NCBI RefSeq assembly: GCF_003234185.1
Contig: NZ_QKSM01000001.1
Coordinates: 1-64,000 of the forward strand
Source of the DNA: Curtobacterium sp. MCSS17_008
GTDB taxonomy: Bacteria; Actinomycetota; Actinomycetes; Actinomycetales; Microbacteriaceae
Length of the DNA stretch: 64,000 nt
Direction: 5' to 3'
Below are positions 44,972 through 61,405 of the stretch, piece after piece. Both the position numbers and the translations under genes were made by a program. Position 1 is the first letter of the stretch. Each line of letters starts with the position of its first letter. The notes beneath the pieces were generated by a model. It saw nothing but the letters and a program-made list of their open reading frames with translations, had not been told where the DNA came from and searched no databases.

Positions 44972-46819
<1,848 letters not shown>

Positions 46820-46833
46820 GAGCCGACCGTCGT

Positions 46834-46876
46834 ACGGGAGGCGCGGCGCGGGTCCGACCCGCACCGCGCCTCCCGT
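46834..46876. terminator. Hairpin terminator after leuA (dispersed repeat copy)
   Basis: ACGGGAGGCGCGG (46834-46846) pairs with CCGCGCCTCCCGT (46864-46876). An inner GCGGGT/ACCCGC stem and a single mismatch make it about 19 bp. It lies 14 nt after the leuA stop. The sequence belongs to the GGACGGGAGGCGCGG family. Confidence 0.8.
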
Positions 46877-46947
46877 CCGTGCGTGCGTTCCGCGCGCCCG
46901 TCGTCCCGTCGGCCGGGTCGCGCGACGCGCCGATCGCGTCCGCGGCG

Positions 46948-47485
46948 GTCGCGTGACGCGCCGCTCACGTGCGCTGAGGTCGCACGACGCGCCGTCGGGA
47001 CACCGCGAGAGCGACCGTTCGTGCGACCGGAACGACCGGCGCGCGGCGTGTTGTGCGCACTCGTGGCGCGCCCCGTCCGTCTTGCCTTGGTCGCGCGACT
47101 TGCCGCTCATGTCCGTTGAGGTTGCGCGACGCGCCGTCGGGGCACCGCGAGAGCGATCGTTCGTGCGACCGGAACGGTCGGCGCGCGGCGTGTCGTGCGC
47201 CCGTGTGGCGTGCACCGTCCGGCTTGCCTTGGTCGCGCGACTTGCCGCTCATGTCCGCTGGGGTCGCGCGACGTGCCGTCGGGGCACCGCGAGAGCGATC
47301 GTTCGTGCGACTGGAACGGTCGGCGCGCGGCGTGTTGTGGGCCCGTGTGGCGTGCACCGTCCGGCTTGCCTTGGTCGCGCGACTTGCCGCTCATGTCCGC
47401 TGGGGTCGCGCGACGTGCCGTCGGGGCACGGCGAGAGCGACCGTCCGTGCGACCGGAAGGATCGACACGCGGCGTGTCGTGCGCC
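46948..47485. repeat. 142-bp tandem repeat array, about 3.8 copies
   Basis: Copies begin at 46948, 47090, 47232 and 47374, exactly 142 bp apart. Copies 2-4 are closely similar; copy 1 is divergent and copy 4 is cut off near 47485. Each unit holds two 10-bp palindromes of the form GTCGCGCGAC whose starts are 31 bp apart (for example 47232 and 47263), followed by TTGCCGCTC and GTGCCGTCG respectively, and later a CGAGAGCGATCGTTCGTGCGAC segment. Since 142 is not a multiple of 3 and frames differ between copies, it is not coding. It fills most of the 794-nt gap between leuA and recO, with no gene. Confidence 0.93.
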
Positions 47486-47613
47486 TCCGCACCGGCTGGT
47501 ACCTCCAGCCCGGGCGCCGGGCGCCGGGCACCGGGCCGGGGCGGACGAGCCCGTCCGGCCGACAGGACCGCCGCTCGACGGGCGGTGTCGGCGGAGCGGG
47601 GGATACTGAGGGC

Positions 47614-48447
47614 ATGCCGCTGTACCGGGACGAGTGCGTCGTGTTGCGCACCCACAAGCTCGGCGAGGCGGACCGCATCGTCACGATGCTCTCCCGGCAG
47701 CACGGCAAGATCCGGGCGGTCGCCAAGGGGGTCCGGCGCACGGCCTCGAAGTTCGGGTCGCGGCTGGAGCCCTTCATGGTCGTCGACGCCCAGTTCTACG
47801 AGGGCCGGTCGCTCGACATCGTCACGCAGGCCGAGAGCCTCGGGTCGTACGGCGCCCAGATCGTCACCGACTACGGGGCGTACACGGCGGCGAGTGCGAT
47901 GGTCGAGACCGCCGACCGCCTGAGCGAGGCCGACGCCGGGCTCCAGCAGTACCTGCTGCTCGTCGGCGCCCTGCGCTCGCTGTCCCGGCGTGAGCACGTC
48001 GTCAGCGCCACCCTCGACTCGTACCTGCTCCGGGCGATGAGCATCGCGGGCTGGGCGCCGTCGTTCGGCGACTGCGCGGTGACGGGTGAGCCCGGCCCGC
48101 ACACCGCCTTCGTCGTGCAGCTCGGCGGGGTGGTGACCGACCGGGCGGCCCCTCCCGGCACGCCGCGGCTCGACACCGACACGCTCGGGCTGCTCGGCGC
48201 GCTCCTCGCGGGCGACTGGGCGACGGTCGACGCCTCGGACGAGCGGACGCGGTCGCGCGCGTCCGGCGTGGTGGCGGCGTACGCCCAGTGGCACCTGGAA
48301 CGATCGCTCCGGTCACTGCCGCACGTCGACCGCAGCGAACACCCCGCGCCGGTCGCCCCGGCCCCGGGAGGGGTGCCGGCAGCCGTGGCCGCCACCCCGG
48401 CACCCGCGGTGCCCGTCCCGTCCGACCACGAAGGAACCCCTGCATGA
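47614..48447 (+). CDS. recO: DNA repair protein RecO
   Basis: A 277-aa recombination mediator that loads RecA through the RecFOR pathway. The N-terminal OB fold begins [24 protein letters not shown], and the central [20 protein letters not shown] is typical. The C-terminal zinc site usual in Gram-positive RecO is degenerate: [13 protein letters not shown] keeps one Cys of the first pair, and [12 protein letters not shown] has neither of the second. A Pro/Ala-rich tail ends the protein. ATG 47614 has GATACT (47602-47607) 6 nt upstream and no Shine-Dalgarno. The stop overlaps the uppS ATG. Confidence 0.92.
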
Positions 48448-52858: not shown

Positions 52859-52918
52859 GAACACCGGTGTCCCCGGAAGACACCGGTGTTCACGGGAGAC
52901 ACCCGCGTATCCGGGTGT
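52859..52918. terminator. Double hairpin after glyS with ACACCGGTG repeats
   Basis: A 13-bp perfect stem (52859-52871 with 52879-52891, 7-nt loop) is followed by a 7-bp stem (52899-52905 with 52912-52918). ACACCGGTG recurs a third time at about 52930. A terminator for glyS is likely. Confidence 0.78.
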
Positions 52919-53021
52919 TCGACACGTGGACACCGGTGCCTTCGTCACCTGTCCCACCGCGGGGCCGCGCAGCTGCGGCGCGGCGTGGAATAGGGTCGGC
53001 GCGGTCCGGCTTCCACCCGAC

Positions 53022-53756
53022 ATGAACGATTCCGTGAAGGTCGATGTCTGGTCGGACATCGCGTGTCCCTGGTGCTACATCGGCAAGCGGAAGTTCGAGG
53101 CCGGCGTCGCCGCCTTCGCGGCGTCCCCCGAGGCGCAGCCGGTGGAGGTCGAGTACCACTCCTTCGAGCTGAGCCCGGACACCCCCGTCGACTTCGAGGG
53201 CACCGAGGCCGAGTTCCTCTCGCAGCACAAGGGACTGCCCGTGCAGCAAGCCCAGCAGATGATCGACCTGGTCGCCGGCATCGCCGCGACCGTGGGCCTG
53301 CGCTACGACTACGACGCCCTGCGTCACACGAACACCGTCAAGGCGCACCAGGTCATCCACCTCGCCAAGCAGCACGGCAAGCAGCTCGAGATGGTCGAGC
53401 GGCTGTTCACCGCCTACTTCGAGCGTGGGGAGCACGTCGGGCAGGACGAGTCGCTGGCGGACCTCGGCGCGTCGGTCGGGTTGGACCGCGACGAAGTCCT
53501 CGCGACGCTGCGCGACGACGCGCAGCTCGCCGCCGTCCGTGCCGACCAGGCGCAGGCGCAGGCGTTCGGTGTCAACGGGGTGCCGTTCTTCGTCATCGAC
53601 GGCAAGTACGGCGTCTCCGGTGCGCAGGACCCGACGGCCTTCGAGCAGGTGCTCCGCCAGGTCGTCGCGCTGCGCGACACCACTCCCGAGGAGCTCGCGG
53701 AACGGCAGCAGCGCGCCGCGGACGACGCGGCAGCGGACGCGGAGGCGACCCGGTGA
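53022..53756 (+). CDS. DsbA-family (FrnE-like) dithiol oxidoreductase
   Basis: A 244-aa thioredoxin-fold protein of the FrnE/2-hydroxychromene-isomerase-like DsbA subgroup. The active site CPWC is Cys15-Cys18, the cis-Pro loop is GVNGVPFFVI, and a helical insertion occupies about 70-165. No signal peptide, so it is cytosolic, unlike classical DsbA. It may act in thiol or oxidative stress repair. A -10-like TAGGGT lies at 52991-52996, giving a short leader. The last bases overlap a 55-codon ORF containing a CxxxxC pair. Confidence 0.88.
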   Translation: MNDSVKVDVWSDIACPWCYIGKRKFEAGVAAFAASPEAQPVEVEYHSFELSPDTPVDFEGTEAEFLSQHKGLPVQQAQQMIDLVAGIAATVGLRYDYDALRHTNTVKAHQVIHLAKQHGKQLEMVERLFTAYFERGEHVGQDESLADLGASVGLDRDEVLATLRDDAQLAAVRADQAQAQAFGVNGVPFFVIDGKYGVSGAQDPTAFEQVLRQVVALRDTTPEELAERQQRAADDAAADAEATR

Positions 53757-57182: not shown

Positions 57183-57196
57183 TGGGGGATCGACCC

Positions 57197-57286
57197 GATC
57201 ATTCCGTCCGGCCCGATCATTCCGTCCGGCCCGATCATTCCGTCCGGCCCGTCCACAGCCGCCGCGATCGTCCGCCGCGATCGTCC
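57197..57286. repeat. Two short perfect tandem repeats upstream of dnaG
   Basis: GATCATTCCGTCCGGCCC is repeated three times without mismatch (57197-57214, 57215-57232, 57233-57250). GCCGCGATCGTCC is repeated twice without mismatch (57261-57273, 57274-57286). They end 9 nt before the dnaG -10 box, so they occupy the upstream promoter region and may be regulator sites. Confidence 0.85.
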
Positions 57287-57306: not shown

Positions 57307-59232
57307 GTGGCTGGCAGGATCGCGCGGAACGACATCGACGAGGTCCGCTCGCGTGTCAACATCGCCGACGTCGTCGGCGACCACGTGACGCTGAAGTCGG
57401 CGGGTGTCGGCTCGCTCAAGGGTCTCTGTCCCTTCCACGACGAGCGTTCCCCGTCCTTCCACGTGCGCCCGCAGGTGGGGCGGTACCACTGCTTCGGGTG
57501 CGGTGAGGACGGCGACGTCTTCGAGTTCATCATCAAGATGGACCACACCACGTTCCAGGAAGCGGTCGAGCGGATGGCCGCGAAGATCGGCTTCACGCTC
57601 CACTACGAAGAGGGTGACGGCCCGCGCACCGACTACAACCAGCGCGCACGGCTGATCGCCGCGAACGAGGCGGCGCTCGAGTTCTTCCAGTCACAGCTCA
57701 CCTCCGCGGCCGCCGAGCCGGCCCGGCGGTTCCTCGGGGAGCGCGGGTTCGACCCGGCGGCGGCGCAGCACTTCGGCGTCGGGTTCGCTCCGCAGTCGTA
57801 CGACGCCACGCGTGAGCACCTGCGCAGCCGCGGCTTCTCGATGGACGAGATCCTCGCCGCGGGCCTCGCCGGGCAGGGCGACCGCTCGCCCTACGACCGG
57901 TTCCGCGGGCGGCTCATGTGGCCGATCCGCGACGTCACCGGCGCGACGATCGGCTTCGGCGCCCGGCGCCTGCTCGACGACGACAAGGGCCCGAAGTACC
58001 TCAACACCCCCGAGACGCCGATCTACCACAAGAGCCAGGTGCTCTACGGGCTGGACCTGGCGCGACGGGACATCTCCAAGGGCAAGCAGGTCGTCATCGT
58101 CGAGGGCTACACGGACGTCATGGCGTGCCACCTCGCCGGTGTGACGACCGCCGTCGCGACGTGTGGGACGTCGTTCGGCGTCGACCACATCAAGGTCCTC
58201 CGCCCGATGCTCGGCGACGTCAGCGGTGCCGACCCGAACGCGAACGGCGAGGTCGTCTTCACCTTCGACCCGGACGAGGCCGGTCAGCGCGCTGCTTCCC
58301 GGGCGTTCGCCGAGGAGCAGCGCTTCGCTGCGCAGACGTTCGTCGCGGTGGCGCCCGGTGGGCTCGATCCGTGCGACCTGCGCCTCGCGCGCGGCGACGA
58401 CGCGATCCGCCGACTGGTCGGTGCGAAGCGTCCGATGTTCGAGTTCATGATCCGGCGGACCCTCGACGGCCACGACCTCGAGACGGTCGAGGGACGCGTG
58501 AGCGCCCTGCGGGCGGCCGCACCCGTCCTCGCGGGCATCCGTGACCGGTCACTGACACAGGGCTACGTCCGCGAGCTCGCCGGGTGGCTCGGCATGGACA
58601 TCCCCGAGGTGCGGCGTGCCGTCGACTCGGCCCGACAGCGTGCGACAGCCGCCCGGAACGACCGGACGGGAGGCACGGTGCCGGTCGGTCAGGCGGGCCC
58701 CGGCGGCGAGCTGGTCGCCCCGCCCGAGGAACCCGTGGCCGGGTTGCGCCTGCTGCCGAACGACCCGATCACCCGGATGGAGCGCGACGCCGTGATGGCG
58801 ATGGTGCAGCAGCCGGCGTACGTCGGGGCGCCGCTCATCTGGCTCGCTGCCGGTGCCACGTTCTCGGCGCCGATGCTGTCGGTCGTGCGGGACGCCGTCG
58901 TCGCCAACGTCGAGTCCATCGGCGCGGGGGACTGGCTCGACCGGTTGCTGCAGGACGTCCCGGCGCCGTTCCGTGCGCTCGTGCAGGAGCTCGCGCTCGC
59001 GCCGATCCCCGCCCGGACGGACGAGGACCTCGCGCTCTACGCCCGCAGCATCGTCGTGGCGCTGGTCGAGCGGGACCTGCTCGCACGCAAGGCCTCGTTG
59101 CTCGGGCAGCTGCAGCGGGCGGACCCGCACGAGCAGTCCGACCGGCGCGCGGAGATCCAGCGCCAGCTCGTCGACATCGACGCGCAGCGGATGCGGCTCC
59201 GCGCCGACGCCGAGGCCGCTGCGCAGGGCTGA
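57307..59232 (+). CDS. dnaG: DNA primase
   Basis: A 641-aa RNA-primer synthase for replication. The zinc ribbon is Cys41-Pro-Phe-His44 and Cys62-Phe-Gly-Cys65. The TOPRIM core has VVIVEGYTDVMA and FTFDPDEAGQRAA. A linker near 440-490 leads to the DnaB-interacting C-terminal domain. GTG 57307 has TAGGAT (57295-57300) 6 nt upstream and no Shine-Dalgarno. Residues about 453-462 (RTGGTVPVGQ) are encoded by a 26-nt stretch (58663-58688) identical but for one base to part of the terminator repeat at 5503, implying a repeat inserted in the linker. Confidence 0.95.
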   Translation: MAGRIARNDIDEVRSRVNIADVVGDHVTLKSAGVGSLKGLCPFHDERSPSFHVRPQVGRYHCFGCGEDGDVFEFIIKMDHTTFQEAVERMAAKIGFTLHYEEGDGPRTDYNQRARLIAANEAALEFFQSQLTSAAAEPARRFLGERGFDPAAAQHFGVGFAPQSYDATREHLRSRGFSMDEILAAGLAGQGDRSPYDRFRGRLMWPIRDVTGATIGFGARRLLDDDKGPKYLNTPETPIYHKSQVLYGLDLARRDISKGKQVVIVEGYTDVMACHLAGVTTAVATCGTSFGVDHIKVLRPMLGDVSGADPNANGEVVFTFDPDEAGQRAASRAFAEEQRFAAQTFVAVAPGGLDPCDLRLARGDDAIRRLVGAKRPMFEFMIRRTLDGHDLETVEGRVSALRAAAPVLAGIRDRSLTQGYVRELAGWLGMDIPEVRRAVDSARQRATAARNDRTGGTVPVGQAGPGGELVAPPEEPVAGLRLLPNDPITRMERDAVMAMVQQPAYVGAPLIWLAAGATFSAPMLSVVRDAVVANVESIGAGDWLDRLLQDVPAPFRALVQELALAPIPARTDEDLALYARSIVVALVERDLLARKASLLGQLQRADPHEQSDRRAEIQRQLVDIDAQRMRLRADAEAAAQG

Positions 59233-59278: not shown

Positions 59279-59443
59279 TTCCGGTCCTTCCGGTCCTTCC
59301 GGTCGCTCTGGCGTTGCGGCCCTTCCGGGTGTCGCGGCCCTTCCGGTCGCTGCGGTCGTTCCGGTCGCACGACTTGCCGCGCGCGGTCGACCTGGTCGCG
59401 GGACTTGCCGTAGCGACCGGAACTGAGCGGCATGTCGTGCGAC
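59279..59443. repeat. Repeat-rich intergenic region: TTCCGGTCC runs and GTCGCRCGAC palindromes
   Basis: TTCCGGTCC occurs three times in tandem (59279-59305, last base varied), with further CCTTCCGG units to about 59345. Then GTCGCACGAC (59364) and GTCGCGGGAC (59395) lie 31 bp apart, each followed by TTGCCG, and GTCGTGCGAC at 59434 is preceded by GAGCGGCAT, the same motif inverted. They share the motif and the 31-bp spacing of the array at 46948. The 556-nt gap 59233-59788 holds no gene I can support. Confidence 0.75.
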
Positions 59444-59646
59444 CACAACCCGAGCCCTGTCCCGCGTCGGCCGGCGACGTCGAGCGTGATGGATGTCGCC
59501 CGCTCGGCGAACCAAGAGCGAACCGGGTGCGAGCGCGATCGAGGCCCAGGACGGCGCGCGAGCGCCCCGGTTGCACGACGCAACTTTCCTGCGTGACACG
59601 CCGTGTGACCACGCGCGCATCATGCGCCAGGCGGCACGCTCGTGCA

Positions 59647-59660
59647 TTACAAGGGTGTAA
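59647..59660. promoter_or_regulatory. Candidate operator upstream of peptide ABC transporter
   Basis: TTACA AGGG TGTAA, a perfect 5-bp inverted repeat in an unusually AT-rich patch (59646-59665), lies about 130 nt before the substrate-binding gene. A palindromic TGGTACCA lies at about 59698-59705. Both could belong to the operon promoter. Confidence 0.4.
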
Positions 59661-59788
59661 ACAAATGTCCCTCGAATCGTGGAGTTCCGTGTCAGGGTGG
59701 TACCAATGAGCGTTCCCGGCGGGCTCCACAGTCGTTCCACCGCCCGCCGAGGACCCCTTGTGGACCATCACCAAGAGAGAGAGCGGAC

Positions 59789-61405
59789 ATGGCATCCGTG
59801 ACCAAGTGGGGCAAGCGCGGCATCGCGCTCGGCGCCGGCGCAGCAGCGACGGCGCTGGTGCTGACCGGCTGCGCGAGCAGCAGCGTCTCCGACACCGAAC
59901 TGAACGGCCTGAGCATCGGGACGACGGACAAGATCACGTCCCTCGACCCGGCCGGTTCCTACGACAACGGCTCCTTCGCCGTGCAGAACCAGGTGTTCCC
60001 GTTCCTCATGAACACCCCGGTCGGTAGCCCCGACGTCGAGCCGGACATCGCCGAGAGCGCGGAGTTCACGGACGACACCACCTACACGGTGAAGCTCAAG
60101 AGCGGGCTGACGTTCGCGAACGGGAACGAACTGACCTCGAGCGACGTGAAGTTCTCGTTCGAGCGCGAGCTGAAGATCAACAACGAGAACGGCCCGCAGT
60201 CCCTGCTCGCCAACCTCAAGAGCATCGACACCCCGGACGACACCACCGTCGTCTTCACCCTCGACCACGCCGACCAGACGTGGCCGCAGGTGCTCTCCAG
60301 CCCCGCCGGCCCGATCGTCGACGAAGAGGTCTTCTCGCCGGACGAGCTGACCAGCGCCGACGACATCGTGGAGGGCAAGGCGTTCGCCGGGCAGTACGAG
60401 ATCTCCTCGTACAAGGAGAACGACACGATCCAGTACACGGCGAACCCGGAGTACGACGGGCTCCTCGGCAAGGCGAAGACCGACGAGGTCACCGCCAGCT
60501 ACTACACCAAGGAGACCGACCTCAAGCTCGCCGTGGAGAAGGGCGACGTCGACGTGGCGTACCGCTCGCTGACGCCGACCGACATCGCGGACCTCCGCAA
60601 GGACGACTCGCTCACGGTCACCGACGGCCCCGGCGGGGAGATCCGCTACATGGTCTTCAACCTCAACACCCAGCCCTTCGGTGCCGACCAGTCCGACGCG
60701 GACGAGGCGAAGGCCCTCGCGGTGCGGCAGGCCGTGGCGGACGTCGTCGACCGTGCGGCGATCGCCGAGGAGGTCTACAACGACACCTACTCGCCCCTGT
60801 ACTCGATGGTGCCGGACGGTCTGACGGGTGCGGCGAAGCCGTTCGAGGAGCTCTACGGCGACGGCGACGGCGGCCCGGACGTCGACAAGGCCAAGGAGAC
60901 GCTCGAGGAGGCCGGTGTCACGGGCAAGGTGCAGATCGACCTGCAGTACTCGCCCGACCACTACGGCTCGACCTCCGACGACGAGTACGCGGCGATCAAG
61001 ACCCAGCTCGAGAACTCGGGCCTCTTCACCGTCAACCTGCAGTCGACCGTCTGGACGACGTACTCGCAGGAGCGCGTGAACGACGCGTACCCGGTCTACC
61101 AGCTCGGTTGGTTCCCGGACTTCTCGGACGCGGACAACTACCTGTCGCCGTTCTTCTCGAAGGACAACTTCGTGCAGAACCACTACGACGACGCCGAGAT
61201 CCAGGACCTCATCGCCCAGGAGCAGCAGGAGTCCGACCCGTCGAAGCGCGCGGACCTGATCGAGCAGGCGCAGGAGCGCGAGGCCACGCAGATCTCGACG
61301 CTGCCGCTCCTGCAGGGCAAGTCCGTCGCGGTCGCGTCGAAGGACGTCAAGGGCCTGACCCTCGACTCCTCGTACAAGTTCCGCTACGCCACCCTCTCCA
61401 AGTAA
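59789..61405 (+). CDS. Peptide (Dpp/Opp-type) ABC transporter substrate-binding lipoprotein
   Basis: A 538-aa SBP_bac_5 family protein. The signal peptide ends in lipobox LTGC (lipidated Cys28). Family stretches include ITSLDPAGSYDNGSFAVQNQVF, LKSGLTFANGNELTSSDVKFSF and the C-terminal YQLGWFPDFSDADNYLSPFF. It would bind oligopeptides or similar solutes outside the membrane. The start ATG 59789 follows GAGAGAGCGG. The gene is separated from its permeases by a hairpin, consistent with higher expression of the binding protein. Confidence 0.9.
   Translation: MASVTKWGKRGIALGAGAAATALVLTGCASSSVSDTELNGLSIGTTDKITSLDPAGSYDNGSFAVQNQVFPFLMNTPVGSPDVEPDIAESAEFTDDTTYTVKLKSGLTFANGNELTSSDVKFSFERELKINNENGPQSLLANLKSIDTPDDTTVVFTLDHADQTWPQVLSSPAGPIVDEEVFSPDELTSADDIVEGKAFAGQYEISSYKENDTIQYTANPEYDGLLGKAKTDEVTASYYTKETDLKLAVEKGDVDVAYRSLTPTDIADLRKDDSLTVTDGPGGEIRYMVFNLNTQPFGADQSDADEAKALAVRQAVADVVDRAAIAEEVYNDTYSPLYSMVPDGLTGAAKPFEELYGDGDGGPDVDKAKETLEEAGVTGKVQIDLQYSPDHYGSTSDDEYAAIKTQLENSGLFTVNLQSTVWTTYSQERVNDAYPVYQLGWFPDFSDADNYLSPFFSKDNFVQNHYDDAEIQDLIAQEQQESDPSKRADLIEQAQEREATQISTLPLLQGKSVAVASKDVKGLTLDSSYKFRYATLSK

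Follow-up and report, generated by a model that had tools for sequence, protein, structure and literature searches.

A dispersed three-site REP-like repeat in Curtobacterium, amplified in tandem between leuA and recO

The 142 bp tandem array between leuA and recO of Curtobacterium sp. MCSS17_008 is a partly decayed unit of a repeat family dispersed through the genome, here amplified in tandem. The window analyzed is the whole 64,000 nt stretch of DNA in which the array lies. A first-pass annotation had placed the repeat in a single gap of this window, yet an intact 82 bp unit occupies a further slot within it (Table 1), and mapping placed about 30 elements in the genome. When up to one mismatch is allowed, the 17 bp core (GGTCGCRCGACNYGCCG / GGTCGCRCGACNNGCCG) was found at 157 places in the 3.25 Mb genome, against 20 for the reversed-pattern control, and the exact A-form of the core (GGTCGCACGACNYGCCG) has 74 copies, with none in the control. 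The core is present in 51 of 66 Curtobacterium genomes, at 1 to 74 copies in each genome that holds it. The rest of the bacterial family essentially lacks it, searches beyond the genus yielding no more than isolated matches, single or double. A paired-pattern scan of the genome collection returned Curtobacterium records only, and a search pattern independent of the core word, given below, yields the same genus-restricted picture. The sequence fetched for closer analysis consisted of stretches around matches together with fixed regions near recO. That the repeat is a dispersed REP-like family we hold with high confidence. Carriage of the array by plasmids was considered and set aside, the array having no plasmid match in PLSDB.

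At positions 46947–47485 TRF identified 3.8 copies of the 142 bp repeat with 90% matches, which bears out the exact period and the nearly four copies originally described. Profile matches identify the neighbours as leuA (45002–46819) upstream and recO (47614–48447) and uppS downstream, and the leuA-recO gap is non-coding by codon usage, again as first described. A scan of the gap for promoters and terminators found nothing. The GC-rich hairpin directly after leuA also heads the gap in relatives, with the element slot starting beyond it; it has no T-run and hence was not called a terminator. The genome is a 36-contig draft, which leaves room for an array created by assembly, or for a chance minisatellite. 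However, the array copies are 7 to 20 substitutions apart and are therefore real separate copies, not assembler duplications of one; the unit is dispersed genome-wide, and similar arrays are found in G023, putatively the PacBio-finished genome of Curtobacterium sp. MR_MD2014 (PMC4698388). We consider an artefact or chance origin barely credible. The authors of the MR_MD2014 genome report 13 ‘potential CRISPRs’ (PMC4698388), some of which may be arrays of this repeat.

Table 1. Positions of the array, its sites and associated features within the window
Feature	Position	Strand	Description
GC-rich hairpin GGGAGGCGCGG...CCGCGCCTCCC	46835..46877	+	Directly after leuA; sequence; kept in relatives
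Forward site, exact consensus GGTCGCGCGACGCGCCG	46916..46932	+	31 bp ahead of array
Array unit 1	46947..47088	+	Forward sites 46947, 46978; degenerate reverse sites 47012, 47044
Array unit 2	47089..47230	+	Forward sites 47089, 47120; reverse site 47186 (1 mismatch)
Reverse-oriented site of unit 2	47186..47202	-	
Array unit 3	47231..47372	+	Forward sites 47231, 47262, both exact; degenerate reverse site 47328
Array unit 4, truncated	47373..47490	+	Forward sites 47373, 47404, both exact; degenerate reverse site 47470
Intact dispersed element	59363..59444	+	Forward 59363, forward 59394, reverse 59428; next element slot; orthologous unit in three relatives

The layout of the array per 142 bp is forward-forward plus two degenerate reverse sites, and one or two such reverse-oriented sites, overlooked by the first-pass annotation, can be discerned in every unit. 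Each unit had been said to carry two 10 bp palindromes. This is correct for units 3 and 4, the only ones with two perfect GTCGCGCGAC palindromes, but not for unit 1, which has GTCGCGTGAC and GTCGCACGAC, or unit 2, which has GTCGCGCGAC and GTTGCGCGAC. GTCGCACGAC is the genome-wide consensus of the 10 bp part and is not a perfect palindrome; the functional-looking site is one of 17 bp or more (GGTCGCRCGACNYGCCG), not the 10 bp palindrome. Array units fold no better than shuffled sequences (z -0.89 and +1.01). Because intact reverse sites and folding excess have been lost, the array in the window probably represents a by-product left by decay rather than the working form of the family.

Almost all copies of the core belong to one asymmetric unit of 82 bp, Forward-31-Forward-34-Reverse. 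Nearly every cluster within this genome follows the offsets 0/31/65, or 0/34/65 as the reverse complement, some with extra 31 bp monomers. The two forward sites are 31 bp apart in the clade to which this genome belongs, and frequently 32 bp apart outside it, while the step from forward to reverse site is 34 bp. From fetched loci totalling about 870 kb, 114 distinct candidate triples were collected, and the reversed control gave 16 when searched by the same lax rule; nine of the 114 were discarded by eye, leaving 105. A permissive de novo triple finder gave 66 control matches in five reversed sequences, and a stricter rule was adopted instead. Single 17 bp sites are not stem-loops, whereas forward-reverse pairs form them, and intact dispersed units fold as single strands far better than shuffles do (z -3.6 to -5.5). 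The variable N position varies independently among the three copies of an element (pairing 18–23%).

The geometry recurs with the core words GTCGC, CGGGC, CGGTC, TGGTC and GTTCC, and relatives carry words other than that of this genome at the same slots. The family A core is near-palindromic; the family B core is not, and lacks the 10 bp palindrome altogether. The exact form of the family B word, GAGCGGGC, occurs in 19 of the 66 genomes and is not found in this one. The word-independent pattern CCGAG-word-ACGACNYGCCG-CGTGCG has matches in 34 genomes and none in the control. The words at the three sites often agree, yet they can differ inside one element (L145, L148, L163, L174). Taken with the independent variation at N, these mixed words favour three separate protein sites over an obligate stem.

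Absence of the unit from all close relatives, which the first-pass annotation had named as damaging to its proposal, is not what was found: family A or B elements lie in the same gap, several of them with period 142. Arrays of this period occur at leuA-recO in family B relatives (L045, L047, L048) as well as in C. luteum NS184, there in a different gap (L031). Close relatives differ in array length, with three versus four units in L047/L048 (G027/G028), and core copies near slot 2, the intact element of the window, number three versus one in G007/G008. The exact period, shared with family B arrays in the same gap, speaks for the original proposal of a dedicated chromosome-organising array at leuA-recO, in which sites 31 bp apart would face the same side of the helix. 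Yet the same sites occur singly throughout the genome, relatives space the forward pair by 31 or 32 bp, and the forward-reverse step is 34 bp. The leuA-recO gap is without such an array in many relatives, and the perfect palindromes, missing from family B, are a local variant. The same-face argument is therefore unsupported, and a dedicated phased array appears highly improbable. Fixed spacing and conserved sites leave standing the more general suggestion of protein binding, since the sites are probable recognition sites, but not that of a special array at this locus, where one member of a dispersed family has been amplified and has partly decayed. As a separate observation, the leuA-recO gap of G009 (L066) is filled by a different tandem repeat, in which a GATGCGTGTCCGGGGT unit recurs about ten times, together with a further long inverted repeat.

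The orthologous unit at slot 2 was compared with its counterparts in relatives by gapped alignment, in which sites differ by 4–14%, internal spacers by 23–29% and flanks by 43–55%, the low site divergence being partly ascertainment because sites were gathered by consensus. A second comparison of the flanks was ungapped, which inflated flank divergence. Over seven slots, spacer identity is 0.74 at orthologous slots versus 0.51 between slots of one genome, while site identity is about equal in the two comparisons (0.89 and 0.86). Since spacers are more alike at orthologous slots and sites are equally alike everywhere, the elements have descended vertically in place, with their sites held to consensus as the flanks diverged; the manner in which sites were gathered weakens the latter point.

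Twenty-seven elements of this genome have both neighbouring genes, and 18 of these are located between convergent genes (17 of 26 in a second count), nine between tandem genes, and none between divergent genes or inside genes. The convergent excess has a p of about 1e-7 against a regional base rate, the latter drawn from one region of 14 genomes. Among relatives 14 elements are convergent, 22 tandem and none divergent, many of the tandem cases being slots near recO. Orientation of the element relative to tandem genes is balanced at 5 versus 4. One gene flanked by adjacent elements (L071) matched nothing in NCBIfam.

With elements lying downstream of genes and dispersed units folding well as RNA, a 3'-UTR stem-loop, a terminator or a small RNA has to be considered. 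Against this, wobble pairs show no strand bias (G-U 144 versus A-C 126), orientation is unbiased with respect to the upstream gene, array units lack any folding excess, Rfam gave no match at gathering score, there is no T-run, and at leuA the elements come after a separate hairpin. An RNA feature thus seems very unlikely.

The reading we lean towards, with moderate confidence, sees in the array the local amplification of a REP/BIME-like element, non-coding and dispersed, whose sites are read by a sequence-specific factor at gene ends. The basic element is the 82 bp asymmetric triple, consisting of two forward 17 bp sites 31 (or 32) bp apart and a reverse site 34 bp further on, and a putative sequence-specific DNA-binding factor would recognise the sites. 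For the binding step considered by itself, we judge the case evenly balanced. Recognition is indirectly supported, from sequence comparison, by the fixed spacing, by orthologous sites lying nearer to consensus than spacers or flanks, and by fast-changing words within a constant layout; counting against it, the strong single-strand folding of dispersed elements suits a hairpin substrate too. At gene ends the element may act as a barrier to transcription read-through, or as a supercoil or gyrase site as in E. coli BIME-2. Arrays such as that at leuA-recO would grow through unequal recombination or slippage and not through transposition. A bolder version, which we regard as speculative and rather unlikely, is that an architectural protein family, or fast-diverging paralogues, reads the triples at convergent gene ends, the word being repeatedly replaced while the geometry stays fixed, and site and reader co-evolving genome-wide.

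The main rival to the binding-factor reading is a selfish miniature mobile hairpin, REPIN- or MITE-like. On this reading a putative transposase would copy the triple as a folded single strand of DNA; the element would lack any host function and would accumulate at gene ends, where insertions are least harmful. The strong single-strand hairpins, the several related families and the position of elements at gene ends are all in keeping with it, as is copy number, which at 0 to 74 per genome across the genus looks more like that of a mobile or selfish family than of a needed host function. A hint of replication-following orientation, as expected of lagging-strand transposition, was also seen in the closed genomes (G001, G018, G023, G026, G029, G032, G039, G044, G050, G060), where 32 of 46 forward-forward pairs run in the direction of the replication fork (32 versus 14, p 0.011), although this bias is nominal only and is gone once syntenic slots are merged (20 of 30; 20 versus 10, p 0.10). 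On the other side, the RAYT/Y1 transposase (Y1_Tnp, PF01797) was found in none of the 66 genomes, this one included, while control genomes were positive, and RAYT-driven spread is accordingly unlikely. Where slots are shared, the elements seem to be of long standing and passed down vertically, and core words may differ inside one element and so break the stem. A selfish hairpin is possible, and we hold it less probable than sites read by a binding factor.

REP, BIME and REPIN sequences of Enterobacteria, Pseudomonas and Stenotrophomonas are short, dispersed and extragenic, with tens to over a hundred copies (PMC2817692, PMC3116915). The Curtobacterium repeat is likewise short, dispersed, extragenic and high in copy number, and its clusters are also regularly spaced, in both orientations, and in some cases tandemly amplified. 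The two also share a fixed spacing of direct and inverted combinations, clusters of mixed families, tandem arrays and species-specific sequence (PMC2817692, PMC3116915). However, the Curtobacterium consensus GGTCGCRCGACNYGCCG is missing the GTAG-type head and the genus is missing a cognate RAYT (0 of 66), and because of these two differences the repeat is not filed as a member of REP/BIME. In addition, the REP module alternates whereas the Curtobacterium module runs forward-forward-reverse, and a REP unit is an imperfect palindrome able to form a stem-loop, where in Curtobacterium the single sites are not hairpins and the forward-reverse pairs are. The CGTC-tagged palindromic repeats reported in Proteobacteria, Chlorobi, Bacteroidetes, Spirochaetes and Thermotogae are similarly REP-like without a dedicated transposase (PMC3733652). 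Their single units are stem-loops, though, with the tag at the stem end, where the Curtobacterium repeat has its variable N. The gyrase-binding BIME-2 of E. coli also forms tandemly amplified repeat blocks at gene ends, but its sequence is unrelated to the Curtobacterium repeat, for which a gyrase or IHF role would be hypothetical.

RAYT transposases are the usual explanation for REP-like families. The genus-wide families described here, within Actinobacteria, combine a strict three-site geometry and high copy number with no RAYT in 66 genomes, so that such repeats either arise through some other machinery or are maintained by selection for a factor that binds them. Since the core word has been exchanged in nature at shared slots, the choice between selfish hairpin and host site is directly testable. 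A search of the open-licence literature found neither a description of repeats of this kind in Curtobacterium nor a paper on actinobacterial RAYTs.

Three other features of the window were noted. At 52861–52940, upstream of a gene at 53022, are ACACCGGTGT palindromes at 52862 and 52880 and a variant at 52928; they are unrelated in sequence to the repeat and are possibly operator sites. Three perfect 18 bp tandem copies of CCCGATCATTCCGTCCGG are located at 57194–57251, shortly ahead of a gene at 57307. Finally, the stretch at 59560–59740 (GTTGCACGACGCAAC ... CATTACAAGGGTGTAAACAAAT), upstream of a gene at 59789, is kept in the 13 relatives compared, unlike the element slot preceding it, and is probably a promoter or regulatory region.
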